Assembly (NCBI RefSeq): GCF_000485595.1 | Contig: NW_014577261.1 | Location: 307,080-332,288 of the forward strand | Direction of reading: 5' to 3' | Length of the DNA stretch: 25,209 bases | Source of the DNA: Priapulus caudatus | Taxonomy: Eukaryota; Priapulida; Priapulimorpha; Priapulimorphida; Priapulidae | Part shown: piece after piece, positions 1,430 through 20,994 of the stretch | Layout of the letters: every line of letters starts with the position of its first letter | How positions within the stretch are numbered: the stretch's first letter is position 1 | Translations under genes and position numbers: made by a program | The notes under the pieces: generated by a model | Database searches by the model: none | What the model was told of the DNA's origin: nothing | Seen by the model: only the letters and a program-made list of their open reading frames with translations

Positions 1430-1549
1430 ATCGAAGAAAAAGAAGCTATTCAGCTTATATATCTGTTCAAGGCAGGACGCAAAGTTTTGGTTCCCTTTTT
1501 CGACTGTTCACATATAGATGTAGAAATTGATACCAACACCTCTGTGTGG
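1430..1549 (+). CDS. Adaptor exon 1 (visible): start of PX domain
   Basis: A strong acceptor (TTTTTACAG) is followed by 40 open codons and then donor TGG/gtattg, phase 0 at both ends. The segment HIDVEIDTNTSVW fits the first PX strand; SH3PXD2 proteins have a DVE motif here, eight or nine residues before the VY that opens the next exon. The 27 residues before it match nothing I know. There is no methionine in the exon, so translation must start upstream. Confidence 0.6.
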
Positions 1550-4500
1550 GTATTGTTTATGAGATTGGTGAATGTATAATTGCGATCAATTGATCTGATC
1601 TTTCCAAACCATTGTAAGTTGCTGAATGCAACAATAACATTACGTGAGTGTTAATGGCATTCAAACGGGTGAATTGACCCATGATTTCAATCTCAACCTC
1701 CTGCAATAAGTGACCGGTAACATATGATATCTGTAATATATGACATGTACAATCTACACAGGTTTTGACATCTCGCCCCAGAGTTACGTGACTGACAGCA
1801 CATGACATATACTTGCCATGTTTTGTCTACTCATCGAATACTTGTTTGCACAGGTGGACTTGTCAAAGATTATTACAAGAACTTTGTGGTAGAGCTGACG
1901 TCTGAGCCTCGGTTAATTATGTTTTCTTAAGCACTGCTTTCTAAGGTCAGGGTTTGCAGCTACGGAAGCTAAAATCTTATTTGTCTAAGTTCATGAAAGA
2001 ACTGTAACATTGACCCGATGTTACTTATCTGCCTGTATGCTATATTAAGCATGCTTATATGTGTAGAGAGATGACCCACTTAATGTTGCGCCAATCTGGG
2101 GGACCTATATATAGCTTCTTCCTGTAAAATTTGCGACTGAAGACTATAGGCCTATATCATCAGTCCGAGCTAATAATGACAAATTTGTTATTTAATGACA
2201 AAACAAATTGTTATTTAATGACAAAATTTGTCATTATTAGCTCCTGGTATCATGTAATTAGTAATATAGTTGCAACCTTCCACACTTACTTATGCGTTGA
2301 AAAACAACAAAAAGCACAGTGCTGGTAAAAAGCACAGTGCATACGCTGGAAACACATTCGTGTACAAATAGATTAGTTAACTAGTGCCCTGTATTGCTAT
2401 GGCATGCACAAAGAGTAATGATTAGTCATATGTTTAAACTGGCATTACATAATTTGTCTACATGAGTAATGTCACTGCCACGCATCCACACGTGTCTGAA
2501 TCATATTAGTTTTCTATTTGTGTGAACATCTCTCAGAAGTGTCACATTATTCACAGGATGCAGTTCTGTACATACGGCGAGTACATGCTTCCGCATTTCA
2601 AGGCAGCGCAAGCTCAAAGCCACATGCTGCTGGTTTGACTTGTATTTGCCCTAGCCTTCAGCAGGTCGTTGTTTTTTGACAGGAGTTTTTTTTGTGGTTT
2701 CCTCTGTAGGTCTATGCAGTGAGAGTGCAGTGGGCAGGAACCAGAAAGACTCTCCTGTTTCGTACCTATGGAGCCTTCTTCGACTTGCATGTATGATTAA
2801 TGTTGTAATTGCACTGGTTCCAGTTGCTATGCTTGATTGCTTGTATATGTGTGGGAAGTTGAGCTTACAAGTGCACAGTAGCTTAGCTCTTCATTTCTGT
2901 TTTCGTTATCACTGTGATGTAAGCTTAGATGCTTTTAGTTTGCTGGCAAAGATTTGTGATCACAATTTTTAGCTCATCTGACGAAGTCAGATGCAGCTTG
3001 TAGAATCGCATGATCGTCCGTGCGTTCGTCCGTCCGTCCGTGCGTTCGTCCGTCCGTCCGTCCGTTCGTCCGTCCGTGCGTTCGTCTACAGTTGGGCACA
3101 AATCTAAACGGCTCGACGTACGGATTCGAAAGTCGGGACGTGGGGGGGTAATCCGAAAACGAGTTGGGATGTCGAAGCTGGGGGTCAAAGGTCAAAGGTC
3201 AAGAGGTGTAAAAAAAGGGGGAACATTCCCTCCTTAACTTAAGGTATAGGGAGGAAATGCAGAATTGCGGCACAAATCTAAACGGCTCGACCTAGGCTCG
3301 TGATAGTCGGTGTACAGCATCATGGTAGGAAAAGCCATCCCTGTGCCGAAATTGGAGGTCACAGGTCAAAGGTCAATGGGCACAGGGCAGATTTTAGACA
3401 TTTTCTGAGGACATGGTCTGACGGAGCGATTGAAAAACTTTTTTGTTTCAGCAGTGACCTAGCATTTTTATGGCTTTATTGAAAGGACCATGAAATGTAC
3501 TTTCTGCTGACATGCGAAGAGTAAGTGTCGGATAACCTTTTGACCCTCAAGAGGCGGGTTAAACATGGATTTGTTTACTGTTACTGTTAGAAAGAATTTT
3601 ACTGCCAGGTTTGCTAGTAGAATCTATACATGCCTGGATGTATGAGGCTACAATGTCACAGTGAAATTTCAAAAGCTAAATTTGGTTGAAGAAGGTTTAT
3701 GCTCCTTAAATCGTATAATTTCTATGGCATTCTGTACTGTCAGTGTGTTACATGTAGCGTATGCCACTGCCAGTGGCCACTGCCAGTGCATGTGGTGGTG
3801 GTACTGTGTAGTTTTTGCCTGCGTTAATTAGTTACAGGTGGCAGCTCTCTATTTTAGCCTGTAGGCTTGCGTAGGTAAATGGATGAGTGCTTACCTATTC
3901 TGTCTTGCAAATAGTTGTTGCTACTACGTATGATGGGAGCTTCCATCTTTAATCTGAAGACACTTAAACGTACGCGCCATCTCGTGGCAACTTTCATAAC
4001 GATCCCAACGAACATTCCTTTGAGAAGGTTCCTGATACCATCCCTGTGCCTTCCACTGTTTCGGCGTGTATGTGAACACATTTGGGACTAACAGGGTTTA
4101 CTAGAATCCCACCACTCCACCACAGAGTCACCGCAGTAGACGTTAGATGAGCGCTGTCGCTCCGCGGCACTTGTCTGTTTAAATATTTGACAAAATTGTA
4201 CCTCAATATATACGAGAGCAATTATAGAATATCTCAGCCAGTGTGCAAAAGAAGGATGGAAATTGGAATACAAAAGTATTTTGTAATATAAAAATATCTT
4301 CTACATCACATTATAGCAGATTAACATTGTGATATCTATCACCTAAACTAAAGTTATTTGCAACTAAAGAAAACTATAATTTCGCGTGCTATCATGCAAA
4401 GCAAATTTATTTTAAGCCTTGTCATTTCTTGAACATTTTAGGCCAAATTAAGGGAAGCATTAGATGGAAAATCTGATGTCATTATTCCAACGCTACCTGG

Positions 4501-7500
4501 TGAGTAGGAACCTGATTACATAGACCGATGCAAAAGTAGGTTACTCTCACAATGTTAACGGCGAAGTGTTGCCGTTGCCAATAAACTACGTACATTGTGG
4601 GACTGCATTCATCCTACCTTGCTGCCAGCTCCATGTGCTGCTTATCTCCGTAATACCTCTAATTGTGTTCTCCTCAGATTTGTGTTGGATCAGTAGACAG
4701 CGAAAATTTGGCAGCTTTAATGTATGGTATCGATGCAGTAGGCAGTAAAGTGGGGTGGGGCCCGGCGGGTGGGAGGTAAGTGTTCAATGTGGCAGGTGGC
4801 AGTGATGTGTGAATAGAAACTCACAGGTGCAATACAGTGACGTTCAGTAGAGCTGGGCAATCATACACAGTCACGCTCTGTGTGCAAACACGTGTGCACT
4901 TCACCTACGAAGAGGCTTTTCAATCGGTTCAAAAGAAGAACAATGAGAACCAGCACATGCTCAGACCTCGGTGAATTCAAGGGATTTGACGAATCGGCAA
5001 TAGGCCACATAGTAAATGAACTCCATCGCTTCGAAAGTTATCAACCTCTGCTCAGAACGCGGGTGCTTCTGTGACAGCATGGCATTAGGGATCAGAGATG
5101 GTGACGGGTTTAACTGCAGCCACTTTCCTGGGGGCAGGAATGTTCCGGCATTTTTCATGCTGTTATCCCGCATCTCGGCGGGACAACCGCTGCTACGTCA
5201 CCGTCGCCGGTCTGCAGGCGCGACTAAAAGTAAAATCCCTCGTTGTTCAAGCGCACAGAGAAAGCATTGATCTGTGCACTTGCGGGTAGGTAACCTGCCC
5301 CCCCCCACCCTGTGGCAAATGTCAACACGCCGGTGGCCCTTGAGTGTAAGCGGAATAGTCAGCATCCTCTCACACTTCCTCTCTGTTCTCCTGCCTCGCT
5401 GTTTATGTTCTGATTACCAGGCAGAAAGTGCAGCGTTTAGTAGTCGCGACTGATTACGGCAAATCACTGCGAATTGTTGCTCGGGGTTTATTGGCACGGC
5501 TGGTTTTGGGTAGGGGGGTTATTGCGCGAGCATTGAGTAGGGCTGGAGGGGTAGCATGCGTGTCGTGGCTATCGGTGTGCGAAAACGACAAACCTACTGC
5601 GCTGTGACGTGAATTACGTGTACTGTTCCCCACGTAGCATTGTGATACGTACAGACGAGTGGAACTCTTGTGAGTAGTGTGGGAACGATAGTGATACATG
5701 CGTTCGTTGTACCGTGCATTGAGAGTGTTGTAATTTGACTGCAAATTGAGACACTTAATCAGACACATTCATGTTTGATTCACATCTATACTATGGTTGA
5801 TTAGTGCTGGAATATCACTCGCTCTAGAGTAAGGTGTATGATCACAGGCAATGCTAAAGTGAGCTTGCTGCTAAAAGCACATGCAAAGGAGAGTGGTGAA
5901 GCTACTCGGGTGTCGTACTAACAACTGTACATCTGTCGGCGCTCACGTGCACGTGTGTGTGTTGTGTTGTAGAGGTATGCTTCATGGAGCAGGCACGGTG
6001 GCTCTCGGAAGAAGCCATAGCCACGCAGCTTCTTACTGCCGTTCGACAGTTCTGTAAGGTACGTGTGAGTGTCGCGCCCATGCTATCGAGAGTAAAATTG
6101 CAAGATTTACAATGCTAATGAGGATTTGTGCAGATAACTTCTGGCGCCAGCTACACGGTGCGCCACCACGCACCCGCATTGTTGTATTCCTGGCCCACAT
6201 TCAAACTAAATATTTACTCTTTCTGCGTAAGCTTGCCCGGGTCTTGCCACACAAACGTACGTGGGTAGATCACACAAAACGCAGGCCAGCGTGGCACCTT
6301 TCTAGGATGACCTTACTCGGACTCGTGCAACCACACTCGTAATGTGTGTCTAACGTGTATTGGATTATGCTCGTCGACGTGCGTTTACCACAAGCAAGAG
6401 ATGGTCAAAGTGCATGCTAGGGGCTACGACCTTGTGCAGCCCTTATTGGCGGCCAACGATAGAGGCTGTGACCGCCGTGCTCTCGCGTTAACGTCTGCCG
6501 CATGCTGCGAATTCTCGTAGGAGTTTTTTTTTAAATAATTTCTTTATTTCCAGGTATGTTACAAACATGTTACAGCCATTGCAATACATACTTGTACATA
6601 TATATTTAACTTATATACAATTTGATATGTAGGTATACTTTGATGTACACAATTCTTGTAGGAGTTGCCGAAGCTGCCGGCGGAGGTGCTGGCGAGAGAT
6701 GATATGAGGTGCTTCTTCAGGAGTTGGAGCTCGGACCCGGGGAATGGCGATCGCAGCGACGGCAGGTGAGACGGCTGAGGCATGTTGTCTGGTCAAGCTG
6801 AGTCTTAACATGAGATTTTTTTCGTGGTCCTTATTTCTAGGCACTGCGTATGTGAAACTTGTATTTTTGCCACATTTCTCTCGACGGTCTATGAGAAAAG
6901 ATTAACGGTAAGACTGATGTTAAGACTGATTTTGTTTCTGTGAACAGGCCCTAGGTCTTAACAAACGCCTACACCCGATCTGTTTACAGTCATACTGTAT
7001 TAGTGGGCACCCCTATAGAATCGTCGACTGTCATCACCGATTCCCACAGATGCAATGGGATGAGTGCATCTGTGGTTATATACCTATCGAAGTTTCTGCG
7101 TTATGTTGACATGTTTGAGATGACACCTGTGCGTGATTGCAGTACGTCAAGTGGCGCCACCTGCATGGCACCATCCTCTATGCTCGGCAGTGCATCGGCT
7201 GTGCGTTCAGCGCTCTCTGGTGTTGACGGGAGTGGCGACGACGCATCGCAGCCGCCTCCTGTGCCGCCTCACTGCGCCACCCCCGCCGTGCCGGCAAGGA
7301 TGGCAAGCCGGCGCGTGTCCGCAAACCAAGCGAACATCTCTGCGCCGTCGTTGCCCTCGAGCGATGATTCGTTGCTGGGGTTAAGCATGCAGCTCGGTGG
7401 TGGCAGCGCGGATGGAGAGAGCGATGGTGTTGCACAGTATCGAGCCATCGCCGATTACTGTGCCACCGGGACGGACTTGCTGCTTAGCAAGGGGGCGTTA

Positions 7501-10500
7501 GTACATTGTGTCGAGGCTAATTGTTCTGGTGAGAAGCTAGTATTAATAGGTATAGTTGTAGTCATAGTCATAGCCAGTCATAGTTATAGCTATAGTAAGT
7601 TATAGTTATAATTTATAGTTTATAGTCAAAGTTATAGTTATAATTATAGTTATAGTTACAGTTACAAGAGCAATCGGAGATAGTAAACCTCCACCACAGC
7701 GTAACAGTTCCCCCATCTTGCTGGTACACCAGAGTTTGATGGAATTTTAAGTTTTGATTTTGTTTTTAGGAAGTGTTGGGTTCATTTTGAGTTTCTGGTA
7801 GTTTTGCTTGCTGGAAGCTTTAGTTCAGTTTTTGGCAGTCGGATTCAGTTTCACACTCCGTCCGAAGTCTTCCCCACAAAAAAAATCCTCGATCCAGATC
7901 TGGATCCGGATCACCACCTTTTATCTAATTGATTGGTTCTTGGCCCAAGACCAACCCATCCAAAAAACTTAATCAAAATCCGTCCGTAGCTTTTTGAGAT
8001 ATCCTGTTGACAGACAAACAAACCAACAAACAAACCAACTAGCAGGGGCAAAAACATAACCTCCTTGGCGGAGGTAATGAACAAACTAACAGGGGCGAAA
8101 ACATAACCTCCTTAGCGGAGGTAATAACCTTCATAGCTATAGTCATGGTTATAGTTATAGTTATGATCAGAATTAATGTATGAGCATGTTTACGACAATA
8201 GAACGATTACAGGAAAATTGTAAGTCGACTAGTAGGAAATCTTGTAGTGATCACGATAAGTGATAATCCTTGGGTGAGCAAGCTTTGCGGCAGTAATTAC
8301 GTTTGTCATAGATGTGCAAGTGTGTCTGACTGAATCGTTGCTGTTGGGGACAGGTTGGTGGTTGGTTTCATCGGCTGGGAAGCAGGGTTGGGTGCCCGGC
8401 ACATTCCTAGAACCTGTAGCTTCACAGAGCCAGCATGCTTCACCAGTGGATGACGCTGAAACACCAGAAGTCGGTACGTTATGCTATCGTCAAATTCAGC
8501 GCTGTCCTTGTTTATTGATGACAGCATGTTCTGTAAGGTGAATGTTTGCATTTGTTGGATCTATTGCATAGTAAAGGATTGTATGGTATTGCTTGCTGGT
8601 TATTTTGGTTATAGGCAATTGTATTTCGTAAATATTCTGGCTGTAACCAATGCTATCGGGTAAGGATTTTCGTTGTACCCATGTGGTATTTGAGAAAGGT
8701 GTTGGTTGCAGCCTGTGGTATAAGGTAGAAGATTTAGGTTGTATGACGTCATGTTATTAGGTGAAGGTTTGGCTTGGATTCTCTACTGAGGTATAACGAT
8801 CAGGCTTGTATCCTGCAGTGAGGTGTGTGTCGCTGTGCGCGTGTGAGGCACACGACCAGGATGAGGTTTCGTACGAGCAGGGGCAGCACATAGACGTGAT
8901 CAAGGTCGACAGCTCAGGATGGTGGACCGTCAGGTAGAAGCTTGCTATGCACCACCATTCCCCACTACAGCTTTCCTTCATGTTAAACCTATACTCGCTA
9001 CTATAACGTAGTCCTGGACTAGATTCAGGGGAAGCTCGTCCACTTATTTCTCATCCACTTCATCACACCCCTTTTTAGATTAATCACCATTCATCATTCA
9101 CGATCCATTCACCCCTATGAGCATATATCACTCACTGCTGTTGAACTATAAAGTTTGCGACGAACAGTCGTAGTTAATATTTTCTGTGCTGAAAGCTTGG
9201 CATTGCCTAATCGCATTATCTGATCATGACGACTGTCTGTGTACCAGAGTGGACGGCAAAGTGGGTGTTACACCGGCCATCAATCTACAGCCGCTAGACG
9301 TGGAGCACAACAAGTTCAGCACTCTATTGAATCTTCAGCTGCAACATGCGTTGTTCCACGGGAGACCGGCTCCCCCGCGACCTGGCAAGCCGACTGACAG
9401 GTTGGATGGCTGTGTGGGCATAGACGTATTATCGTGGGAGGATACGTTGGCATGTGGGAGGATATTATTAAGTTCTACTGGCAACGCATACATAAGCTCT
9501 TTAAAGTAGAGCTGATTACGTGCGGAAGCAAAATTCTCAGCGCCACAGGAAAATTAAATTTCTACATTAGCCTGGTCATTGTCGCGTATTCCGGCAATCT
9601 CACATTCGCAAAAGCATACAAAATGTCTGTTTTTAAATGGAAATTTGATTTACACGTAGCCGTAGCAACATATTCAGCAGCAGAAGCAGCAGCAGCAGCT
9701 AATAACACCACTAGCATCAGCAGCAGCAGCAGCAGCAGTAGTACAAGCAGTGGTAGCAATTCGTAAGTGTACGTCACTTGTTATTATGGTTATGTATATG
9801 TTTGCCTGCAGCACGAATAACTCTCCAGCCACAGAAGAGGTGAAGGAGATGACTGGTGGAAGGTCCAAACTTAATTACGTCCAACTTGACTTGGCAGCTC
9901 CAAAGACACTACCTGGGTGAGCCTTGTGTGTTTATTCTGAGCTGTGCAAGCCGTCACCAGTGTTAGAGCTTTAAAATAAAAACCACTCGCCAAACTGGGC
10001 GAGTGAGTCAATAAGTTAACTCGCCCAAACGAAATCTGTACTCGCCCAAATTTTAAAACAAAAATGCTTGTCAAACAATAATGAAAAACACAAAAACACC
10101 ATTGATTTAACTACACATGTAATTCATAGATCACATTTCTCAAAAACTCAAGGCACAACTCTGAAAGTTCGTGTTTTCATTTTCATTTAATTTACTTTTA
10201 TTCTCGGGCTGCTTTGCTCTATCAATGAAACGCCACGTTACGCCAATTTTATTGACTTCTTAACACCAAGGCGAGCCAGTAGTAGCGCAGTCGCTACCCT
10301 ACCCACGATGCGTACAGGGCAAGAAATTAGCCAAAATGTGAACAGGCCCACCCAAAATTTTAGCAGGCCCTTGGACAAATTGAACAGGCTCTTACAAGTT
10401 TGAACAGGCCCTTAATTGTGTTCAATTTATTCCATGATTAATAAAAGTATTAGCTTAAGCATACCAGGCTTGTCACAAGTTTTTAATGTAGCAGGGTAAA

Positions 10501-11624: not shown

Positions 11625-14600
11625 GCTCTCTCTTTCTCTCTCTCGCCCCCCTCTCTCTCTTCTTCTCTCTCGCTCTCTCTCTGCAATAAACAAATGTTTG
11701 CTGAAATGATGTGTACGCAACTGCGTATCTGCATATCTGCGCCTAACAAAGGTGTCACTATGCATGACTGAAATGTTACGTTTATAACCATAGCAACAGA
11801 TCTCAGATGAGCCCAGTCGCTCTGCGGCACTTGTTTTAGACAATTCTCAGGAAATTTTAATCAAAATAATTGATATCTCGATTTATAATGGTCATAAAAT
11901 ATTTATTTTTTAACCAATTTTCAATATCTATATATCAATAGAAAGCTATGAATCTCAGGAATCTGAATTCATCTTAAAATGTCAAAATTGCCCCAAGTGA
12001 CTCATTTCGCTATCACTGGTCACATATGGTAAACCACATAACATATTACGTTATTACTTACATTATCAATAGTGCATGTCATTAATTGCTTGAGCATTTG
12101 GTATTTATTCGCCAAGTTTCTACTCGTCGTTTCCAGGGGCCAACAACAGTCAAGGTTTGTCATTCAAGATGATAGTTCTAGTGAACGAACAACGTATTCA
12201 CAAATCATATTCCCCAACCAGGTATTTTCCATTCCAATTCATGTGCAGCTTGAATGAGAAGTTCTCGCGATACAATTTGAAATTTATTTTAGTCTCTGAT
12301 TGCACAAATATTTGTCAAATTAACATTAGAAAGATAGATTTACATTATAATTATATTGATAATAGCATGACACATTAACTGCATAAAATAAGTCATCTGT
12401 TTTGTAATATTAAGTTTGTAGTTGATTTTCCTGAATAGCTTTAGAACTATTTCAGCAAACAGCACAGGCCAGTAAACAGCACACCTACGTAAACGTGATG
12501 CCGGCCATGTATCAGAACAACTATGAAAACTTTAGAGTGCTGGGCGTACACCCCCCTGTACAGGTACCTATGCATGTCACGAGCAGAATTCCTACTGCTA
12601 TGAGTAGTCAGGCACACTATTGTGCAGCCGTGCTTTTTTAGAAATTCCTATGCAATATCATTGTTCATATATATATATATCAGGAGGTAGATAATAGGGC
12701 AAGGAGTGTGACTTCAATAAAACAAGGGAATTCGTCATTTAGCTAGCCTATAATAATACTACGATTTTACTACGCGTAACTCCATCCAACTGAGCCTCGA
12801 ATCGTACACAGTAACATTCGCCCTAGCATCCGTGCGAATTTCTTTGTATACACCCGAAATCCGGAGATACAGGCTAAAACGTACGCCACGATTTTCCACT
12901 CTGTTGCCAGCAAACTCGATGCGTTCAGTGCCGAATTTGAAACAAAAGGCAGCTACTAATTACACTGTCCACAGCTTGCTCTCTCGGCGAGGCGGTGTGG
13001 CTCGCAGGGAGATTGGACATCGACGCAACCATAGAAGCAACGGGCGAGTGCTACTGTATCCTATCTATGGCTGTAGCCGTGCAGCGACGCGGAACATTGG
13101 CTTGCATTACTCTTTGTTCTGTTGTTTCTCGCGAGAGCCGATGAGCGAAAATATCAACATGGCACCGCGTAAGAGAAAGAATAATCCTAGACAAGACAGA
13201 AGACGAAAAACACCACGAAAGAGCGTAGCTCTGACAGATGCCAAAATTAAGAAAGTGTGTGCTGCTGTCGAAGACACCGACGTGCCAGCATTAGCAGCTA
13301 ACATTAGAAGCAGTGTTCGAGAAGAGCTGCATCTCGACCACGGTGATCGTGTCGTGTTTCTTGAACACATAGACAGTCTCAGACATCTCTTATTTACATG
13401 ACGCGGTGACAGCAATATAGTCATAGCAACGTGTACACGAACCTCTGCACGTGAGCAGGAGTCTAACAACAATATTACTGTTTATTGGTAGACTCATGAT
13501 GTGCTATTGTGCGGTCGGTTATACACGCTGCCGCTCAGCAGCAGAGCTGCTGCTGATTGTGGTGGGGGGGCATACTAGCTGTAAATAGGTCAGAGCAAAG
13601 GTTAGCTCGCCAAGTGTTGCGTCGATGTCCAATCTCCCTGCGAGCCACACCGCCTCGCCGAGAGAGCAAGCTGTGGACAGTGTGGTTAGTAGCTGCCTTT
13701 TGTTTCAAATTCGGCGCTGAACGCATCGAGTTTGCTGGCAACAGAATGGAAAATCGTGTCGTACGGTTTAGTCTGTATCTCCGGATTGCAGGTGTATACG
13801 AGAAAACGATTTCGCACGATGCTAGGCAAATGTACTGTGTACGATTTGAGCTCAAGTTGGATGAGTTACGCGTAGTAAATCGTAGGTATTATAAGGCTAG
13901 TCAATGACGAATTTCCCTTGTTTATTGAAGTCACACTCTTTCCCTGTTATCTACTCTTGATATATATATCTATATATATAATGGGAGGGAGAGAGAGAGT
14001 CATAAATATCCAGAGGATGTGTTATCCAGAATATTGAGTGAAAATCCAACAAACTAGGTAAATGATATTTCTATATGCTGCCATTTACTTGACCATGTTG
14101 TATAGGATTTTCTAACTGCAGAATGCAAAGACGTTTGTTACTCAATGTGCTAATAACTGTTGGAAAGGGTGGGGGGGGTTAGTTAACCAATTAAGTGAGG
14201 AGAGTGTTTAATTGTTGGTGTAATTCTATATATGTTTGCAGGAAGCTCCTGATCCCTCTTCACTAATTAAAAGTAAGTCTCCATATTTCTGTAGTATAGG
14301 AACAACAATATTTTGTCAGATGTTGGTTTAAAGGTGCAGTGTTGTGAAAAGTTCTAGTAATGAATGCACATTACTGATATTATTTCTCCTTCTAAAAGAT
14401 GATTTCCTTTGATATTTTCAGGGAACAAGCCACTCCCCAATCTTCCAGAAAGATTAGACAAGCTCAATATAACTGGCAACCACTCAGATACCCAGACACT
14501 GGTATACATATCTTCTATATATAGCTATAATTGGCTATCTTGTGTGTGTTGTGTGTGTGTGTGCTTTGTTTGTCCTCGCTTTCGCCTGATTTGTCACTCA

Positions 14601-17600
14601 ATCGACGCTAACTGAGATATATTCGAATCACCACGTCTGGTGAGATGGTTCTGGCTGATGAAAAAAATTAAAACAAAAGTGTTAAGTATTAAGTATTAAG
14701 CTCAAAAATTCGCAAAATATGCTATTCGTCAATACTGCATGGCAGTGGCGCTACAGCAGATCCAGCTTCACATACGTGGCGAATGTACACTGCGTCTCTT
14801 GACTGCCGCCGTATGCAGCATATTTCACGAATCACCACGTCTGAGGAGATGGTTCTGGCTTCAAACAAAAATTCTTTCCTCAATATGATGTGCTTACGTC
14901 TCAGACACCCGCCCGCCTACTTGCAGATCCCCCCTGCCTCACTCTGCTTTGCACGTACAGCCGTAACTGACAAACAGTGAGTCAGTGGCCAGTAGGCTGT
15001 GCCAATGTTCTGTGTACCCAGTGCAGTGGTTTTTTTTCAGTTACCTGAAATATTTAATTAACTTTACTCTGTGTCACTTACAATGGAGTTTTATAATTTA
15101 AAGACAACATTTGCTGCTTCTACGCGGTACTTTCTGGCTAGTATACCTATAATTTGGCTAATCTTGTGTGTAAGAGTGTGTGATGTGTGTGTTGTTCGAC
15201 CTCGCTTTTCTCCGTGATTTGTCACTCAATCGCGGTAACTGAAGCATATATCAGAATCACCGACGTCTGGGAGATTGGTTCTGCGCTGAGAACACAAGAT
15301 TTAAAAAAAGTTAAAAGTAAAAAAAAAAAATTGTAAAATCTAATTCAATCATCACCGTACGGTGGTAATTATTCAGGCGTGTCTTGTCGCCGCCCTGTAT
15401 GCGTAGTCGGTTAGGAGATCGGCTTTTATAACCCGGATTCCCAGGTTCGAATCTCAGCTGGGAAAAAATGTTCTCCTGACTTTTTACTTTTTAGTATCTA
15501 CTTTGCCACCTCAGCGTTAATTTCAAAATGTAAAAAATAATGTTACTACATCATTAAAAAAAAAGATTAAAAAGTTAAAAAGAGTTAAAACTTCATCAAT
15601 TCTATTCATTCAATAGATGCGGTGCGTACAGATTAAGCAAATCACGTACGTGTGGAATGCCATGTATACCCTTAACGGCGGAGTGGCTTAATGCGGCTAG
15701 AAAATCGCGTCTCGCTACCCCGGGACTTCCGGGTTGGAGTGCTCAGCTGGGGGAACTTATTTTCCGCCTTTTTTCTTTTTTTCCTTTTACCTACCTCTAA
15801 TATGAATTATTTTTAATTTTTTTTACTTTTTACTATATTATTTTTTATATTTAATGTCTTTTTAAATCTTTTTGATTTCTTACATTATTTTTTAGGCTGT
15901 TGGGATGGCATGGGATGGCAGGGCATGGAATGGGATGGGCATGGCATGGACGAATGGAATGGGATGGGATGGGATGGAAGCTGTGGCCATGGTGATTGCG
16001 GTGCGATGGGAATCGGCATGGCATGGCAATGGCATGGCATGGCATGGCATGTGGCATGGCACATGGCAAATGGCCTGGCATGGCATGGGTTGGGGATGGG
16101 ATATGGGATGGGATGGCATGGGATGCGGTGCAATGGGATGGGAAGGGATGGCATGGAATGGGATGGATGGATGCATGGATGGATGCATGGATAGATAGAT
16201 AGTTAGATTTGTTTGGGTATTTTCCTTTCAACCAAGCGGTCACCAACTGAGTAACGCCACTGATTTCCCCGGGCAACGCCGGGTATCCCGCTAGTATATA
16301 TAAAGTTGTTCAGCCGAATTACTCGTACTCGTATAACTAGAGAACTCCGCAGCCTAGAGGAAAACTAAAGATATTTTCAGAATCAGCATGTCTGGGAGGT
16401 GGTTCTGGCTGAAACAAAAATTTAGAAAAGTTAAAAAGTTAAAAATTCATAAAAATTCTATTCATCAATAGATGGCGGTGCGTACAGATTAACGTCACGT
16501 ACGTGTGAATCCATGGGTATACCCTTAACGGCGCAGTGGCCTAATCGCTAGAACATTCGTCTCCTACACCGGGATTCCGGCTTTGAGTCCCAGCTGGGGA
16601 ACTTATTTTCTCCTTTTTTCCTTTTTTCTCCTCTACCTACCTCTTTAGTATGTATTATTTTTAATTTCTTACTTTTTAATTTTAATTTTTTATATTTAAT
16701 GTCTTATCTTTTGATTTCTTATTATTTTTTACTGTTTGGGATGGCATGCGATGGCATGGCATGGGATGCGGTGCGAGGGGATGGCATGGCATGGCATGGG
16801 ATGGCATGGGATGGCATGAGATGGGATGAGATGGGATGGGATGGGAATGGGATGGGATATGGGATGGGATGGGATGCGGTGCGATGGGATGGGATGGCAT
16901 GGGATGGATGGATGCATGGATGGATGCATGGATAGATAGATAGTTAGATTTTTTTGGGTATTTTCCTTTCAACCAAGCGGTCACCAACTGAGTAACGCCA
17001 CTGATTTCCCCGGGGTATCCCGCTAGTATATATATATATATATGTTTTCCCATAAAAAATAACCTATTGTGATCTAAACAATTCATATGGCATCCAGAGA
17101 GACATGATACAAGATTGCGTGGCACAGCTTTGCTGTTGATCCTGAGAGCTGCGCGTGGATGAGACGCGCAGTTCCGCGGGATATGCGCACGCGACCGCGG
17201 GAATGTTATGCGTATAGTATGAAGCGCTGTCTCCAGTGGAGACGTGCGCCAAATTTGAGACCCGGCGCACGTCTCCACAGCGGTCAGCGGATGGTCTGTA
17301 GTTTTAGAAGATAACAATGAAGACTTTGTTCTAAATAAGAACTATCGGCGGCTAAATAAGAGCAATAAACAGACCTTTGAATTTCTTGACTAGTCAGTCA
17401 AAGGGCTTGTTGGGGGTCCATTATGCAGAGCTTCCAATTCAAATAGCCCATGAAATTGTCAAGTGGAATTGTGTTTTTCGGAACCCCAAAGAAAATGTCT
17501 CCCTCTTACATGCACCCCCTCCCTGATCAATCACGCATTCAGGCGTAAACAATAACAGAGATGAAATTGTGTTGAGTTTATGGCTCTTGGCGCACGTGCA

Positions 17601-20600
17601 TTGACATACAAGACTGATGAAAGCACAGGCACTTGGAATGTCTCAATAAAAATTAATCTTCATACAATTTTTCACAATGATCGACCGCCTGTGTGCAAAA
17701 CAGGTGAACGTATGTAAAACACACCTTAAGAAATGCTGAGAGGTTACGAGGTTATCATCGCAGAACTCCCAACACCGCCCATCCTGATGTCACAAAGCTA
17801 TATGTAAACAAACATGCGTGCTGCGAGGTGCGTGCCTCCGATATCTATTTCGAGGCCTGCTAAGCCAAGCATAAAGCGCGCGTGCAAGACGTCACACACA
17901 CAGCTACGTTCATTGGCTAAAACAATCGAGTAGCACGGTTAGGGATTTTCGGAATTATTTAATTTTAAGAAAAACTTCAATGTTCAATGAATGACGCACT
18001 TGTTCACTTCCGAAAGCGGGTAAAAATGCCTAATTTTTGCACTTCGGTGCGAAATGCATCGGCCGGGCCTTTCATTATTTACGAAAAGCAAACAGTCTCG
18101 CCAAACACCTACACGCAGTAACGGGTCACGTCATTGACGCCCCATTCATGCCCATCAACGAAGAAGGCGGGGCTTATTCTGATTATGGAAATGCGAAAAT
18201 GCAACAGAAGGACGTAGCGCAGGGTGCTAAACAGCGTGTTATTTTCGTATTTGTGCCAAACTCTATCGTAGGAAACCGTTCTAGCCTAGCAGAATGCCCT
18301 AGTTCCTGAGATCGGCGATTTGGTGGTCAAATGGGTCCCCATATTTAAAAATATAAGACACTGGTGCGGCGTAGGCTGTGATTGGAAGACACAAAGTGTC
18401 AATCCTCGGCGCGCCTCGGCATCATGCCCGCATCACGTCTAGGGATTGGAGTTGTTCATTCAGGGATATCTTGTTTTAGCCATTGCCGATCGTAGCAAAG
18501 GCGAAGTTTGTGTCGGAGAGAGAGGGAGTGCTTTCATTCAATGGAGGAGATACTGCCATCCTTCTCGACAAGACCAATCCGAATGGGTGGTGGTGTGTTC
18601 AGATAGGCAGTTCCATTGGATGGGTGCCAAAAGATTACTGGTCAATCTCATTGTGTGAGGTAAGGTCACCTCTACTGGTCTATATTGTTGTTTGGGATAT
18701 GAGATCACCTCTATATATTGATCTATATTGTTGTGTGAGGTAAGGTCATCTCTACTGGTCTATATTGTTGTTTGGGATATGGGATCGTATCTACTGGTTT
18801 GTATATTAATGTGTGAGGCAAATGTTCCAATCTACTTGTCTATATTATGTCTGGTTTATGTGATTGCGTGAGAGAAGGTCACTTCTGTTGGTCTGTGTGT
18901 GGTATAAAGTTACCTTCATTGATCCATATCATCAACATTTTGTGTTGTAGTAATTGTATGTGTATTTTAGCTCATATAGACTTTGGTGCTTCTACAACTA
19001 ATACCTCCACGCTGTCGAATTTTTGTGCGTTGAATTAATAATTCGCAAATATGCAACGGAAATCTCTCCTTACTATCGTAGGATGCAGAGAGTGAGGATA
19101 CCCACAGGGCGACGCAAAACAAGCAAGCGTGTGTTTCTGGTCTTAAAAGAACCGAAGCGATGAAAACGCCCGATGGCGGCATGGCAAACGTCGGCAGGAT
19201 TAGAGTAAGATGCCTCTTCAACTAACTTTTCTGTACTACAGAATTTTCTCATTCTGGATTAATAAATCGGAGGTATGCAAACGGATATATAACGTCTCCA
19301 TTTTCTCCTAGAGCACAGAGGGTCACAGTCCACCTTGTGCGAGCCACGATGAGATAGGCTCTGACAAGAGTGATGATGTCCACCGGGTAACGCACAACAA
19401 ACAAGTGTGCGTCTCTGGTCTCAAACGGACCGAGGCATTGAAAACGCCCTCTGGTGGCATGCCGAATCTTGGCAGGAATCGGCCTTTCGAGAGTGCGAGA
19501 AAAAACGATGCAAGCGAGATTAAGAGCACGGCTAAACAAACAAACAGCAAGGATCTGGCAATGACTGCTGGCACTAGGTATTGTCTTTGGCAACCGTCGG
19601 TTACAATGCAATTAAACGCAAAAGTCTTATCTCAATTTGCACTTTGTTGTGTTTGCCGATTCGCATTTTTGTTATTTTGCTATATTAACTGTTTTCTAAT
19701 AAAGTGTTGAAGGGTGAATGTGTTTCCATTTGTTGTATAGGCCAGCTATGGCCTTGCCTGGTAAGGAGGAGGTGGCTCCCTCTACCACCGGTCACGGCAG
19801 TAGTCAGCCAATCCCGCCTCACGCAGATTGGTTCTTTGGGAAGCTAGGACGAGACGAGTGTGAGACACTGATGTCACACAACAAGGGCCAACCAGGCGAC
19901 TTTTTAGTGCGAGAGAGCACCACCAGGGTATGCACCAATATCGTTACAATTTGTCCTGTTTTGCAAAACAGAAAAATCATATTAATTATTGAAAACAAAC
20001 GGGGAGTCCTCGGGATATTAATTCTATACGTGCTGTGAATTCATATTTATCTTGTGTTAAATCCAAGAAATTAACTTACTATCGAAATTTTCAATCTGCC
20101 TTCGGGAAATCTTCATCAGGATGTGACGTCACCATAGGTGACAGTATATATTTCAATAGTAAGTTAATTTCTTGGATTTAACACAAGATAAATATGAATT
20201 CATAGTTTCAACGAAATCCAATGAACTTTCTTTACCTCCGCCCAACGGAGTTGGAGGAGGTTATGTTTTCGCTCTCGTGTGTGTGTGTTCGTGTGTTAGT
20301 GTGTTCGTGTGTTCGTGTGTTCGCGCGATCGATATTAGCGCGTCAGCCAGCGAGCCAGCCAGCGCAGCGAGCCAGCCAGCGCAGCGAGCCAGCGAGCGGC
20401 TGCTACGAGCGAGCGAGCAGCAAGCCAGCAAGCCAGCGTGTACATGTCAGTACGCTGGCGTATATCGTGGCTTATTCGTGTGTTCGTGAGTCGTATGGCG
20501 TATGTCGCTGGCGGAGGTATGCACTCTCCGTGAGTGCACTCTGTCTAGTTCTATAAGTGGTCTGGTCTAGGATTTAGGGTAAACAGTGTTGTGACCTGTT

Positions 20601-20994
20601 CTTAGTGTGTGCATGTTGTTTTCTTTCAGAATGGCGATTTTGTGCTGTCTGTTCTTGACAACAAATGTAAAGTGCATCACTTTCCATTCACAATGCAAGA
20701 TGGCTTTTATCACCTTGGTAAGTCAATAGGATTAAAGGTTATTGCTGGAGAATATGCCAAGGGCATTTAATTTTTATATTAGCTCGGTTTTGCAAATTAT
20801 TATTCACAATATAAAATCATAATCTTGCTGGACAATTTTACTATACAGGTGCCAATTTCGAGACCATTGAGCAGGCAGTGGGGCACTACAAGTTTAATAC
20901 GTTGTCAGGAATGGATTGCCAAGTACGCCTGGTGAACCCTATGCGCTGTAAGAAGGAACGGAGCAAGTTCTTCTGCATGACTACGCACAACTAG
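1430..20994 (+). CDS. PX-SH3-SH3-SH3-SH2 multidomain adaptor (p47phox/TKS-like front, NCK-like back), 5' partial
   Basis: A predicted cytoplasmic signalling adaptor assembled from 20 exons: 1430-1549, 2710-2790, 4442-4499, 5973-6058, 6662-6765, 7143-7528, 8354-8473, 8819-8933, 9248-9400, 9812-9916, 12137-12221, 12456-12563, 14242-14272, 14422-14501, 18480-18659, 19082-19204, 19312-19577, 19741-19927, 20630-20717 and 20849-20994. They total 2622 nt, or 873 residues plus the stop, in one unbroken frame. Counting from the first visible residue: PX about 28-145, SH3-A 249-300, SH3-B 321-372, tyrosine/proline linker 373-544, SH3-C 548-603, a duplicated 36-residue module in 605-733, SH2 764-861. 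The SH3 pair looks like the p47phox tandem SH3, and the SH3-C/SH2 end looks like NCK. By family knowledge it should link membrane phosphoinositides or oxidase/podosome partners to phosphotyrosine signalling; that role is inferred. A fusion of two neighbouring genes by my exon chaining is the main alternative, because intron 14 is 4 kb long. Confidence 0.8.
1550..2709. other. Intron 1
   Basis: AT-rich intron with no coding signal. It contains the 20-bp inverted repeat at 2167-2243 (separate entry). Short ORFs on both strands look random. Confidence 0.6.
2167..2243. repeat. 20-bp perfect inverted repeat with internal tandem
   Basis: Arms 2167-2186 (GAGCTAATAATGACAAATTT) and 2224-2243 are exact reverse complements. 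The 37-base loop holds two tandem copies of a GTTATTTAATGACAAA unit. It could be a small MITE or a local hairpin. Confidence 0.8.
2710..2790 (+). CDS. Adaptor exon 2: core of PX domain (strands 2-3 and helix 1)
   Basis: Acceptor CCTCTGTAG, donor CAT/gtatga, 27 codons, phase 0-0. It reads VYAVRVQWAGTRKTLL then FRTYGAFFDLH. It aligns with the PX stretch of p47phox and TKS proteins (VY, then a V-x-W strand, then RRF/RRY-x-x-[FIY]-[FY]). The second Arg of the canonical RR[FY] motif is Thr here (visible residue 59). Confidence 0.85.
3017..3088. repeat. (CGTC)n microsatellite
   Basis: Imperfect CGTC/CGTG tetranucleotide array directly after GCATGATCGTC. It is part of a larger dispersed repeat that starts around AGCTCATCTGACGAAGTCAG. 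Confidence 0.9.
3095..3380. repeat. 174-bp tandem duplication carrying triple DR1 AGGTCA motifs
   Basis: GGCACAAATCTAAACGGCTC begins both units, at 3095 and 3269. Each unit has three nuclear-receptor half-sites with one-base spacing. In unit 1 they are GGGTCA a AGGTCA a AGGTCA at 3182-3201. In unit 2 they are AGGTCA c AGGTCA a AGGTCA at 3356-3375. Their spacing of 174 bp equals the unit length. Confidence 0.85.
4442..4499 (+). CDS. Adaptor exon 3: PX domain, proline loop
   Basis: Acceptor ACATTTTAG, donor CTACCTG/gtgagt, phase 0 to 1. It reads AKLREALDGKSDVIIPTLP, matching p47phox where helix 1 runs into the IIPHLP loop before the membrane-binding lysine. The lysine expected just after LP is replaced by Glu at the next exon junction. 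Confidence 0.85.
4500..5972. other. Intron 3
   Basis: No gene supported. It has a G-rich run near 4750-4775 and a C-run near 5299-5308. Open frames at 5016-5289 (plus) and 5454-5768 (minus) have no family match. The flanking exons join in phase 1 and continue the PX fold directly, so no extra exon is needed. Confidence 0.55.
5973..6058 (+). CDS. Adaptor exon 4: PX domain, helix 2-3
   Basis: Acceptor GTGTTGTAG, donor TGTAAG/gtacgt, phase 1 to 0. It encodes EVCFMEQARWLSEEAIATQ followed by LLTAVRQFCK. The position matches the p47phox segment from KWFDGQ to EYCSTL. The basic residue that contacts the 3-phosphate in p40phox (R105) or p47phox (R90) appears to be missing. Confidence 0.8.
6059..6661. 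other. Intron 4
   Basis: No gene seen. Near its end a polypyrimidine-like run and CAG/GTATGT (about 6552-6559) form an acceptor directly joined to a donor. Confidence 0.55.
6662..6765 (+). CDS. Adaptor exon 5: end of PX domain
   Basis: Acceptor CTTGTAG, donor GGCAG/gtgaga, phase 0 to 2. It begins ELPKLPAEVLARDDMRCFF, the last PX helix. This parallels p47phox SLPTKISRCPHLLDFF and p40phox SLPVWVLMDEDVRIFF. A polar tail leads to the linker. Confidence 0.9.
6766..7142. other. Intron 5
   Basis: Nothing recognised. The open frame that begins at 7003 is intronic until the acceptor GATTGCAG at 7135-7142. Confidence 0.6.
7143..7528 (+). CDS. Adaptor exon 6: proline/serine linker and first half of SH3-A
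   Basis: Longest exon, phase 2 to 1. A low-complexity linker holds proline stretches (SQPPPVPP, TPAVPAR) and an acidic serine patch (SSDDSLL). SH3-A then starts QYRAIADYCATGTDLLLSKG, aligning with p47phox TYRAIANYEKTSGSEMALSTG. PAVPAR fits a class II SH3 ligand (PxxPxR) that could act in cis. The donor TTCTG/gtgaga cuts before the WW pair. Confidence 0.9.
7550..7672. repeat. Degenerate hexanucleotide ATAGTT array
   Basis: Imperfect repeats of TATAGT/ATAGTT, with a short continuation at 8134-8168 on the far side of an inserted dispersed repeat. Confidence 0.85.
7870..8130. repeat. Dispersed invertebrate repeat with CCTCC/GGAGG ends
   Basis: It contains GATCCAGATCTGGATCCGG, a degenerate CAAACAAACC run, and two copies of AACATAACCTCCTT..GCGGAGGTAAT about 52 bp apart. 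A related motif appears at 20240-20272 in intron 18 (CCTCCGCCCAACGGAG then GGAGGTTATGTTTTCG), so the family is dispersed in this locus. Confidence 0.7.
8354..8473 (+). CDS. Adaptor exon 7: second half of SH3-A
   Basis: Acceptor GGGGACAG, donor AGTCG/gtacgt, phase 1-1. It reads GWWLVSSAGKQGWVPGTFLE then PV, matching p47phox [20 protein letters not shown]. The ligand-binding Trp pair, Pro (visible residue 293) and aromatic Phe (296) are all kept, so this domain looks functional. An acidic linker (DDAETPEV) follows, as in p47phox. Confidence 0.95.
8474..8818. other. Intron 7
   Basis: No gene. It has a loosely repetitive G/T-rich texture with recurring TAAGGAT and GGTAT words, and a TGACGTCA site at 8743. 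Confidence 0.5.
8819..8933 (+). CDS. Adaptor exon 8: first part of SH3-B
   Basis: Acceptor ATCCTGCAG, donor GTCAG/gtagaa, phase 1 to 2. It reads CVSLCACEAHDQDEVSYEQG then HIDVIKVDSSGWWTVR, aligning with p47phox YVAIKAYTAVEGDEVSLLEG then GWWVIR. The aromatic residue of the ALYDY-type motif is replaced by Cys. Confidence 0.92.
8934..9247. other. Intron 8
   Basis: Nothing recognised; unique-looking sequence, no open frame with family similarity. Confidence 0.6.
9248..9400 (+). CDS. Adaptor exon 9: end of SH3-B and proline-rich motif
   Basis: Acceptor GTGTACCAG, weak donor GACAG/gttgga, phase 2-2. It completes SH3-B (VDGKVGVTPAINLQPL, with Asn where p47phox has Tyr in MYLQ). It ends GRPAPPRPGKPTDR, a class I RxxPxxP SH3 ligand reminiscent of the C-terminal PPRP motif of p47phox that binds p67phox. 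Confidence 0.8.
9401..9811. other. Intron 9, with CAG/AGC trinucleotide repeat
   Basis: It contains an AGC/CAG array at 9676-9760 ending at a strong donor-like TTC/gtaagt (9764). Translated in one frame it gives poly-Ala then poly-Ser, a possible alternative exon 9661-9763. It is not in the model because its phases (1 to 2) do not join exon 9. Confidence 0.5.
9676..9760. repeat. (AGC)n trinucleotide microsatellite
   Basis: Interrupted AGC/CAG array, two blocks separated by TAATAACACCACTAG. Confidence 0.9.
9812..9916 (+). CDS. Adaptor exon 10: linker with YVQL tyrosine motif
   Basis: Acceptor TTGCCTGCAG, donor CCTGG/gtgagc, phase 2-2. It reads STNNSPATEEVKEMTGGRS then KLNYVQLDLAAPKTLPG. NYVQLD is an SH2/docking-type tyrosine motif (Y at visible residue 430) with hydrophobic +1 and +3 positions, like sites in Gab/FRS docking proteins. 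Confidence 0.85.
10338..10413. repeat. Degenerate tandem GAACAGGCCC repeat
   Basis: Four units of roughly 22 bases, each with (A)CAGGCCC/CAGGCTC followed by an AAATTT-like spacer. Confidence 0.7.
10655..11209. other. Assembly gap (555 N)
   Basis: Unknown sequence. It ends directly against a self-complementary CACGTACACGTGCG array, which probably caused the assembly break. Open frames drawn through the Ns are meaningless. Confidence 1.
11210..11330. repeat. Alternating purine-pyrimidine minisatellite
   Basis: 22-base units (GCACGTACACGTGCGTGCGT plus GG) repeated and then decaying into GT/GC repeats. Strict purine-pyrimidine alternation plus palindromic CACGTACACGTG suggests Z-DNA and cruciform potential. 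Confidence 0.85.
11565..11683. repeat. (CT)n microsatellite
   Basis: Interrupted CT/CTCG array with pyrimidine-only runs. Confidence 0.95.
12137..12221 (+). CDS. Adaptor exon 11: linker with TTYSQI tyrosine motif
   Basis: Acceptor GTTTCCAG, donor AACCAG/gtattt, phase 2 to 0, which fits both neighbours. It reads GGQQQSRFVIQDDSSSERTT then YSQIIFPNQ. TTYSQI matches the TxYxx[VI] pattern of immunoreceptor switch motifs (Y at visible residue 463). Confidence 0.75.
12456..12563 (+). CDS. Adaptor exon 12: triple YxN Grb2-type docking cluster
   Basis: Acceptor CTATTTCAG, donor GTACAG/gtacct, 36 codons, phase 0-0. It encodes HTYVNVMPAMYQNNYENF near its centre. The tyrosines at visible residues 482, 490 and 494 each have Asn at +2 (YVN, YQN, YEN), the Grb2 SH2 consensus; YVNV is the same core as in Shc and LAT. 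Confidence 0.85.
12681..13960. mobile_element. Foldback element with about 345-bp terminal inverted repeats
   Basis: Left arm about 12681-13029 and right arm about 13616-13960 are reverse complements with scattered small indels and substitutions; both include CTCTCGGCGAGGCGGTGTGG or its complement. The unique centre (13030-13615) holds a small basic ORF. The outer ends abut TA repeats, so a target duplication cannot be told apart. No transposase is visible, so it is probably non-autonomous. It may belong to a long-TIR DNA transposon group, but I cannot name one. Confidence 0.85.
13141..13401 (+). CDS. Small basic ORF inside the foldback element, function unknown
   Basis: 86 codons from ATG (MSENINMAPRKRKN) to TGA. 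It has an Arg/Lys-rich N-terminus with KRK and RRRK patches (nuclear-localisation-like) and an acidic C-terminal half ending DSLRHLLFT. The open frame continues upstream into the left arm to 12832, but 13141 is the first plausible start outside the arm. No family recognised. It could be the remnant N-terminus of a transposase, a captured host fragment, or chance. Confidence 0.35.
   Translation: MSENINMAPRKRKNNPRQDRRRKTPRKSVALTDAKIKKVCAAVEDTDVPALAANIRSSVREELHLDHGDRVVFLEHIDSLRHLLFT
14242..14272 (+). CDS. Adaptor exon 13: 31-nt microexon
   Basis: Acceptor TGTTTGCAG, perfect-looking donor AAAA/gtaagt, phase 0 to 1. It encodes EAPDPSSLIK. It is short, but both splice sites are strong and its phase is exactly what exons 12 and 14 need. 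Confidence 0.75.
14422..14501 (+). CDS. Adaptor exon 14: linker with PxxPxR SH3 ligand
   Basis: Acceptor ATTTTCAG, donor CACTG/gtatac, phase 1 to 0. It reads RNKPLPNLPERLDKLNITG then NHSDTQTL. PNLPER fits a class II SH3-binding motif. The donor lies only 12 bases before a TCTATATATAGC sequence that may be a transposon terminus. Confidence 0.8.
15395..15465 (+). repeat. tRNA-like SINE head, copy 1
   Basis: It contains GTAGTCGGTTAGGAGATCGG and then a B-box-like GGTTCGAATCT followed by CAGCTGGG. The acceptor stem does not pair and T/A-rich repeat sequence follows, so it is not a functional tRNA gene. Confidence 0.6.
15670..15752 (+). repeat. tRNA-like SINE head, copy 2
   Basis: Starts CCCTTAACGGCGGAGTGG and ends CTCAGCTGGG. 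The B box is degraded (GGTTGGAGTGC). Followed by GGAACTTATTTTCCGCC, as in copy 3. Confidence 0.6.
15902..16190. repeat. GGATG/GGCATG satellite-like array 1
   Basis: Pentamers and hexamers of GGGAT and GGCAT with ATGGATGGATGC at its right end. The long open frames on both strands (His/Pro/Ser or Met/Gly/Trp rich) are products of the repeat. Confidence 0.95.
16517..16601 (+). repeat. tRNA-like SINE head, copy 3
   Basis: Reads CCCTTAACGGCGCAGTGGCC, then GTCTCCTACACCGGGATTCC, and ends GAGTCCCAGCTGGG. This is the copy closest to a tRNA layout. Confidence 0.65.
16735..16930. repeat. GGATG/GGCATG satellite-like array 2
   Basis: Second array of the same type, with the same right-hand flank (GATAGATAGATAGTTAG, then CTTTCAACCAAGCGG). 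The whole block was therefore duplicated with array 1. Confidence 0.95.
17236..17278. repeat. 15-bp perfect hairpin in CG-rich patch
   Basis: GTGGAGACGTGCGCC (17236-17250) is exactly complementary to 17264-17278, with a 13-base loop. Just upstream, CTGCGCGT/ACGCGCAG and two CCGCGG words form further small palindromes. Confidence 0.85.
18480..18659 (+). CDS. Adaptor exon 15: complete SH3-C domain
   Basis: Acceptor CTTGTTTTAG, donor TGTGAG/gtaagg, exactly 60 codons, phase 0-0. It starts PLPIVAKAKFVSEREGVLSF and has GGDTAILL, NGWWCVQ and GWVPKDYW. The Trp pair (581-582), Pro594 and Tyr597 that line the ligand groove are present. VPKDY resembles NCK SH3-3 (LVPKNY). A whole SH3 domain in one symmetric exon is typical of exon shuffling. 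Confidence 0.93.
18651..18960. repeat. Minisatellite that repeats the exon 15 splice donor
   Basis: Decaying units of about 40 bp (80-bp higher order) built on TGTGAGGTAAGGTCACCTCT and TGGTCTATATTGTTG. TTGTGTGAG/GTAAGG occurs at the real donor (18651-18665) and again exactly 80 bp downstream (18731-18745). Confidence 0.85.
19082..19204 (+). CDS. Adaptor exon 16: duplicated module, copy 1
   Basis: Acceptor CTATCGTAG, donor ATTAGA/gtaaga, 41 codons, phase 0-0, so it can be skipped without a frameshift. It contains HRATQNKQACVSGLKRTEAM and then KTPDGGMANVGR. By eye 27 of 36 residues match copy 2 in the next exon. The upstream intron flank is also similar (ATTAATA, then ATGCAACGGA), so the duplicated unit included intron sequence. 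No known domain recognised; basic, Thr/Ser-containing. Confidence 0.8.
19312..19577 (+). CDS. Adaptor exon 17: duplicated module, copy 2, plus polar linker
   Basis: Acceptor TTCTCCTAG, donor ACTAG/gtattg, phase 0 to 2. After about 18 residues (STEGHSPPCASHDEIGSD) comes the module HRVTHNKQVCVSGLKRTEAL and then KTPSGGMPNLGR. A Lys/Ser/Asn-rich tail leads to the SH2 domain. Most third-position differences from copy 1 are synonymous, which supports coding selection. Confidence 0.8.
19741..19927 (+). CDS. Adaptor exon 18: SH2 domain, N-terminal half
   Basis: Acceptor TTGTTGTATAG, donor ACCAGG/gtatgc, phase 2 to 0. After a linker (QPIPPHA), the SH2 fold starts DWFFGKLGRDECETLM and reaches GDFLVREST. 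The phosphotyrosine-binding Arg of the FLVRES motif is intact (visible residue 791). WFFGK and the start of helix A fit NCK SH2 (WYYGKVTR). Confidence 0.95.
20036..20202. repeat. 47-bp perfect inverted repeat (MITE-like)
   Basis: 20036-20082 (starting TGAATTCATATTTATCTTGT) and 20156-20202 are exact reverse complements. After one mismatch they continue for five more bases. The loop contains TGACGTCACC, a CRE-like site. No ORF. Confidence 0.92.
20272..20435. repeat. (GTGTGTTC)n and CAGCGAGC tandem repeats
   Basis: GTGTGTTC units at 20272-20328, then GAGCCAGCCAGCGCA units at 20345-20400 and GAGC/AAGCCAGC units to 20435. Confidence 0.85.
20630..20717 (+). CDS. Adaptor exon 19: SH2 domain, central strands
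   Basis: Acceptor TTCTTTCAG, donor ACCTTG/gtaagt, phase 0 to 1. It reads NGDFVLSVLDNKCKVHHF then MQDGFYHLG. These are SH2 strands C and D, with the strand D His-aromatic pair (HF) that packs on the phosphotyrosine. Confidence 0.95.
20849..20994 (+). CDS. Adaptor exon 20: SH2 end, C-terminus and stop
   Basis: Acceptor ACTATACAG, phase 1 in, TAG stop at 20992-20994. It reads ANFETIEQAVGHYKFNTLSG, matching NCK SH2 F-x-TMEELVEHYKK, then the final strand VRLVNPM. A 12-residue basic/aromatic tail (KKERSKFFCMTTHN region) ends the protein. Confidence 0.95.

Follow-up and report, generated by a model that had tools for sequence, protein, structure and literature searches.

A Priapulus caudatus gene encoding PX, three SH3, and SH2 domains: a probable SH2-bearing relative of the p47phox and TKS organizers

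In the tandem SH3 of organizer proteins, each domain bears the signature GWW; the first domain is further marked by PxxPhiL, the second by an acidic pair, and the linker is short and acidic. The strict ligand of such tandems has been defined as [PAVIL]PPR[PR][^DE][^DE] (PMC12730246). In the PX domain, R42, P73, and R90 were described as essential for Nox organizer function (PMC2121648). TKS4 and TKS5 (SH3PXD2B/A) are scaffolds and Src substrates (PMC7663256). Autoinhibition has been measured for both p47phox and TKS4, and for TKS4 the opening signal is unsettled (PMC8348221). TKS5 binds NCK and GRB2, and the phosphotyrosine readers that meet TKS in vertebrates, i.e., NCK, GRB2, and Src, are separate proteins (PMC7663256).

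The DNA analysed here, referred to as the window, is a stretch of 25,209 nucleotides of Priapulus caudatus (contig NW_014577261.1, positions 307,080 to 332,288 of the forward strand). One gene within it is interpreted, with a probability of roughly 0.64, as encoding an SH2-bearing organizer related to p47phox (NCF1/TKS), a self-inhibited scaffold which would be recruited to phosphotyrosine.

Gene model and domain order

The exon chain rebuilt from splice sites consists of 20 exons on the plus strand between positions 1430 and 20994, giving 2622 nt in one frame (873 codons and one terminal stop) with consistent phases at all joins. The same number of exons, length, and single frame had been proposed in the initial annotation, and the count and ends in the rebuild were identical to it. 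All 19 introns are of the GT..AG type, with several donors weak beyond the GT. The best of 111 matches in a protein search, in which 7992 candidates restricted to 0.55-1.75 of the query length were scored, was 'PREDICTED: uncharacterized protein LOC106807200 isoform X2 [Priapulus caudatus]' (783 aa; hereafter P0001), and residues 91-873 of the chain were identical to it at 783/783 positions. A single annotated gene therefore covers the disputed exons 12-16. The label 'X2' implies a further isoform, and isoform labels of this kind usually rest on RNA evidence. P0001 starts at residue 91, the first Met of the chain, and exons 1-3 (residues 1-87) lie outside this NCBI isoform; for the predicted first 90 residues, homology and the reading frame are the sole support.

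Of the 9901 bases examined upstream, 9780 read N, possibly because of an assembly gap, and the other 121 coincide with the start of the window; the 5' end of the gene and its first coding exon are therefore unreadable. The readable bases ahead of exon 1 contain 21 ATG and three short candidate exons in phase 0 whose donors are loose, none of them convincing; a stricter scan for the first coding exon before exon 1 gave zero candidates. An extra serine/glutamine-rich exon at 9678-9762 was also tried and rejected, as it breaks the frame and brings in 36 stops.

Several other elements were observed in the window. Exons of a peroxin gene lie on the minus strand at 22169-23333, converging on the gene described here (Pex2_Pex12, PF04757, 37.3 bits against a cut-off of 25.1, hand-joined peptide); it is probably PEX12, judged by its C-terminal CPITG..KLYP sequence. 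A fold-back element in intron 12 (12839-13806) has arms of 191 nt at 12839-13029 and 13616-13806, which are 94% complementary and separated by 586 nt, and its small ORF (MAPRKRKNN..) had no Pfam match over the cut-off. A dispersed repeat is present in two copies, at 9958-10272 with 11317-11468 and at 23534-23832 with 23975-24126, which are 92-100% alike over five pieces; the first copy is broken by the N gap at 10655-11209 in intron 10. Intron 14 contains a satellite of the GGGATGGCATG type at 15900-17014, with a 156-nt stretch occurring twice, 741 bases apart and 93% alike.

Three SH3 stretches and the SH2 scored above cut-off in Pfam (hmmscan). The PX domain (residues ~29-138) is assigned by PDB and profile matches, its Pfam score being sub-threshold, to exons 1-5 (1430-1549, 2710-2790, 4442-4499, 5973-6058, and 6662-6765; span 1430..6765). 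A linker and the first SH3 (~248-300), carrying the GWW and PGTFL signatures, are encoded by exons 6-7 (7143-7528 and 8354-8473), and the second SH3 (~322-371), with DE and GWW signatures, by exons 8-9 (8819-8933 and 9248-9400); both were found by Pfam, PDB match, and motif scan. Residues 398-404 (9369..9389) read APPRPGK, a strict tandem-SH3 ligand motif by the definition of PMC12730246 and a candidate autoinhibitory peptide. Exons 10-12 (9812-9916, 12137-12221, and 12456-12563) encode a linker with five tyrosines, at 430 (LNYVQL), 463 (TTYSQI), 482 (TYVNV), 490, and 494, and exons 13-14 (14242-14272 and 14422-14501) a proline-containing linker preceding the third SH3. The latter domain (~553-597) is encoded by exon 15 (18480..18659), was recognised by Pfam and PDB comparison, and ends in GWVPKDYW. 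Exons 16-17 (19082-19204 and 19312-19577) encode a further linker with a duplicated coding segment (NKQACVSGLKRTEAMKTPDGGM and NKQVCVSGLKRTEALKTPSGGM, 86/111 bases identical). The SH2 found by Pfam (764-839), with FLVRES intact, and the stop follow in exons 18-20 (19741-19927, 20630-20717, and 20849-20994). All of these features are on the plus strand.

The order PX-SH3-SH3-SH3-SH2 in one gene, as initially read from the exon chain, was thus borne out by the domain searches and by the single NCBI model across the join. The possibility that two adjacent genes were joined by the prediction over introns 12-15 was weighed, as the join lies among long introns rich in repeats and the NCBI model is itself a prediction. 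However, the phases are consistent over all joins and the NCBI prediction agrees exactly, although this agreement is not fully independent because the two could share splice-site logic. Moreover, a second protein (P0116, described below) has the same domain order, with an additional SH3-like stretch, in one frame. The finding of separate genes was the outcome that would have spoken against the initial annotation, and the evidence points the other way; we consider such an artefact highly improbable.

The p47phox-related front half

The Pfam PX score fell below cut-off (17.6 versus 21.6 bits, E 0.0059). Residues 36-136 nevertheless matched the p40phox PX in the PDB search (E 2.6e-7), and the first 150 residues scored 39.6 bits against a TKS-type PX profile built from 12 author-selected PX domains, the best of 500 shuffles reaching 5.1 bits; the whole-protein search gave 34.9 bits. 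In our reading the PX is probably real despite its sub-threshold Pfam score, and by the p40phox match and the profile score the protein has the N-terminal PX of the p47phox-related family. In p47phox numbering, the R43 equivalent is Thr and the R90 equivalent is Leu, while those of R42 and P73 are kept, all of these being alignment-dependent. With Leu at the R90 position, the R42/P73/R90 set of the Nox organizers is incomplete.

The best PDB match of the front half was human p47phox (NCF1) chain 8wej (E 8.1e-25), to which the tandem SH3 contributed 72.0 bits and the PX 17.0, and the tandem-SH3-only p47phox chain 7yxw matched at E 1.2e-21. Both domains carry the GWW signature (279 and 352), PGTFL at 293 corresponds to PxxPhiL in the first SH3, and the acidic pair of the second, DQDE, was located from the NCF1 alignment. 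The inter-SH3 linker (residues 301-319) has four acidic residues and no Lys or Arg. A ligand motif follows the tandem both here (APPRPGK at 398) and in P0116 (APPRRNS at 332). The strict motif arose by chance in 98/20000 whole-protein shuffles and in 40/20000 shuffles of residues 373-520. It occurs in 88 of the 117 compared proteins, nearly all of them TKS, and therefore marks the organizer family, not an SH2-bearing branch of it. In Foldseek, ranks 1-3 for the P0001 model were p47phox, at rmsd 11.9-16.1, and the joint groove is therefore not reproduced by the model; its SH3 domains are confident, the ligand region is mostly at pLDDT <50, and the SH2 is not confident. The p47phox/TKS relationship which had been claimed for the front half is supported by these matches, signatures, and ligand motif, and this half, judged by sequence, belongs with the p47phox/TKS (NCF1-related) organizers.

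The SH3-SH2 end and a second protein of the same order

A search with P0001 residues 150-515 gave seven matches among 3267 candidates, namely P0001, four proteins named SH3 and PX domain-containing protein 2A/2B, an unnamed one whose Pfam domains are the same as theirs, and P0116, which apart from P0001 is alone among the seven in carrying an SH2. P0116 (708 aa, from one contig of 2623 bases) contains PX, tandem SH3, the APPRR ligand, SH3, and SH2 in one frame. Its PX is above the Pfam cut-off (24.9 versus 21.6) and its SH2 was also found by Pfam; its SH3 domains form four stretches by one model and three by two others. The PX keeps RRY, the linker contains YVNV and YTQV, the last SH3 ends in GWVPNIYW, and the SH2 lies at the end. 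The two proteins are thus alike in PX, tandem SH3, the APPRR-type ligand, a last SH3 ending in YW, and SH2, and they differ in the additional SH3-like stretch, the retained RRY, and other linkers, with no duplicated segment seen in P0116. The unbroken frame of 708 residues in a short contig suggests a transcript, and the source designation 'lgn' probably indicates an assembly of sequence reads; P0116 could also be a chimeric contig. In its model the PX and SH2 topology is present, the SH2 at low confidence (block means 51-60, residues 611-670), and Foldseek returned p40phox, the p47phox tandem SH3, and SH3-SH2 of Abl/Src/Fyn, with the p47phox PX (1kq6) at rank 44 (TMt 0.69).

Sequence identity between the two proteins is low. 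In BLASTP of P0116 against P0001, the tandem SH3 was 37% identical (5e-20) and the SH2 likewise 37% (1e-13); a further comparison of the SH2 domains gave 40% over 85 residues. As 10 of 12 other SH2 loci of the Priapulus genome are 33-48% identical to the SH2 of this gene over 40-61 residues, the SH2 identity to P0116 is not exceptional and leaves a common origin undecided. Over PX and tandem SH3, the Priapulus protein is 29.1% identical to P0116, 32.4% to NCF1, and 29.3-31.4% to TKS. In a tree of 13 sequences of this region, from which the SH2 was omitted, Priapulus and P0116 were split from NCF1 and 10 TKS with UFBoot 86, on long branches of 2.0 and 1.9. Better arguments for a common origin are the domain order and the GWxPxx[YF]W ending, which occurred in 2 of the 117 compared proteins, P0001 and P0116, a point weakened by the dominance of TKS rows in the set. 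The low identity suggests that the two proteins come from distant species. We read them as a probable SH2-bearing branch of the organizer family, represented in Priapulus within an ecdysozoan.

The initial annotation called the SH3-SH2 end NCK-like. In keeping with this name, with the third SH3 alone NCK1 (29.2 bits) and NCK2 (28.8) were the best single-SH3 chains in the PDB after the two-SH3 chain of GRB2 (34.5). With a two-row profile including P0116, the two-SH3 chains of NCF1 (61.9) and GRB2 (46.7), which are favoured by whole-chain scores, were followed among single-SH3 chains by myosin IB (43.8), ARHGEF7 (41.9), TKS5 (37.4), and NCK2 (35.7). For the SH2 alone, the single-SH2 chains FYN (50.4) and the N-terminal RASA1 domain (48.8) preceded NCK1 (44.5), and with the two-row SH2 profile the single-SH2 chains among the best 60 of 137 matches, from which NCK was absent, included CRK (64.6), CRKL (63.4), and RASA1 (60.9); double-SH2 chains are favoured by whole-chain scores there, e.g., RASA1 (101.9) and SHP2 (88). 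Other families are thus ahead of NCK by a few bits in the SH2 and the two-row profiles. The SH2 region as a protein query returned one match, itself, among 37 candidates, distant SH2 proteins being beyond the reach of that search. No adaptor family stands out for the SH3-SH2 end, and these scores speak clearly neither for nor against kinship with NCK.

These comparisons also bear on whether the gene arose by an independent fusion in the priapulid lineage, between a TKS-like gene and a separate SH3-SH2 adaptor gene of GRB2/NCK type, unrelated to P0116. Such a fusion would be sensible because NCK and GRB2 are separate proteins to which TKS5 binds (PMC7663256), and it is in line with the lead of the NCK domains over other single-SH3 chains when the third SH3 was compared alone, with the low identity to P0116, and with the P0116 SH2 being no closer by identity than several other Priapulus SH2 exons. 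On the other hand, P0116 shares the order, the ligand motif, the SH2, and the GWVPxxYW ending, and we regard an independent fusion as unlikely.

Possible mechanism and comparison with known systems

The preferred reading of a self-inhibited scaffold recruited to phosphotyrosine is suggested by the combination, in one sequence, of the joint-groove signatures, a strict ligand in cis, a third SH3, and a C-terminal SH2 with the intact phosphotyrosine arginine of FLVRES. Both the Priapulus protein and P0116 also have an arginine in the first helix of the SH2 and the histidine following KVH, with roles presumably as in Src. At rest, the tandem SH3 would fold back onto APPRPGK, as that of p47phox does onto its autoinhibitory region. 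Upon tyrosine kinase signalling, the protein would be recruited via its SH2, and the tyrosine cluster, once phosphorylated, could dock further SH2 proteins or the protein's own SH2. Once the protein has opened, its tandem SH3 would become available at the membrane to a partner of PPR type, either a p22phox-type oxidase subunit or cytoskeletal partners as for TKS. With basic lipid residues missing from its PX, the Priapulus protein is probably targeted mainly through the SH2 and less through lipid binding. Within the tyrosine cluster, Y482 (YVNV) presumably fits the GRB2 consensus. The resemblance of Y430 (LNYVQL) and Y463 (TTYSQI) to paired SHP2 sites, which are found in PD-1 and Gab1 (PMC12905495), is suggestive only, since such paired motifs arose by chance in 643/20000 shuffles and are not exceptional. 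The initial proposal that one polypeptide would couple organizer assembly to tyrosine kinase signalling is retained here and extended by the tandem-SH3 ligand, the tyrosine cluster, and the altered PX lipid residues.

As to the partner, a TKS-like scaffold role is slightly favoured over an oxidase partner because oxidase subunits were reported to be lost in ecdysozoans. It is possible, though doubtful, that the protein organizes an NADPH oxidase, its tandem SH3, once freed, binding a p22phox-type subunit and its SH2 placing a Nox2-like oxidase at tyrosine kinase receptors that have been activated. Among PDB entries, p47phox comes nearest to the tandem SH3, and the ligand motif belongs to a class also used by p22phox/CYBA (PMC12730246). 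However, the PX has no equivalent of R90, a distinct regulatory subunit was found in none of the seven ecdysozoans of a 2007 survey, which comprised four insects, two nematodes, and a water flea (PMC2121648), and loss of NOX2-like oxidases in the ecdysozoan ancestor and absence of p22phox in arthropods were reported (PMC5372347). Priapulus is an ecdysozoan by taxonomy, and priapulids are mentioned in neither of these two papers, as far as their available text extends. The TKS-like role is also supported by the binding of TKS5 to NCK and GRB2, a link which the Priapulus protein would carry in cis. A connection of an SH2 adaptor to the oxidase was sought in PMC7026191; in its available text NCK leads to WAVE2 and p47phox is recruited by lipids, and no coupling of SH2 to an organizer is shown. 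Rather improbable, in our estimate, is an ancient third p47phox-related branch with its own SH2, in which phosphotyrosine would directly open and place the organizer in cis and which would still drive a p22phox-dependent oxidase in Priapulus, within a clade considered to have lost that system.

No PX-SH3-SH2 protein was named in the literature surveyed by titles and abstract openings, and PF00017 (SH2) was found in 0 of the 110 other matches of the first protein search. Absence in other species is weak evidence because 7992 and 3267 candidates were scored, within a window of 0.55-1.75 of query length. Like the sea urchin p47phox-like protein, P0116 combines PX and tandem SH3 with two additional SH3 (PMC2121648); the sea urchin protein differs in that the main text of that paper nowhere mentions an SH2. 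NCK and GRB2 have an SH3 directly before the SH2, as the Priapulus protein does, but lack PX and the tandem groove; in place of the three SH3 and SH2 of NCK, the Priapulus protein has a PX and first two SH3 of p47phox type. TKS4 and TKS5 share with it PX, tandem SH3, and a further SH3, but have four or five SH3 (PMC2121648) and lack an SH2, in contrast to its three SH3 and SH2. With p47phox/NCF1 it shares PX, tandem SH3 with the GWW, PxxPhiL, and DE signatures, and a PPR ligand after the tandem, whereas it adds a third SH3, a tyrosine linker, and an SH2, and the R43 and R90 equivalents are changed. The gene is therefore regarded as a real one, in which known parts stand in an order without named precedent in the literature so surveyed, an order present in two proteins. 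The completeness of organizer-gene loss in Ecdysozoa is thereby questioned. With a phosphotyrosine reader and a PX/tandem-SH3 scaffold in one chain, together with a candidate self-inhibiting ligand, in both proteins, direct control of an organizer by tyrosine kinases becomes testable within one polypeptide.
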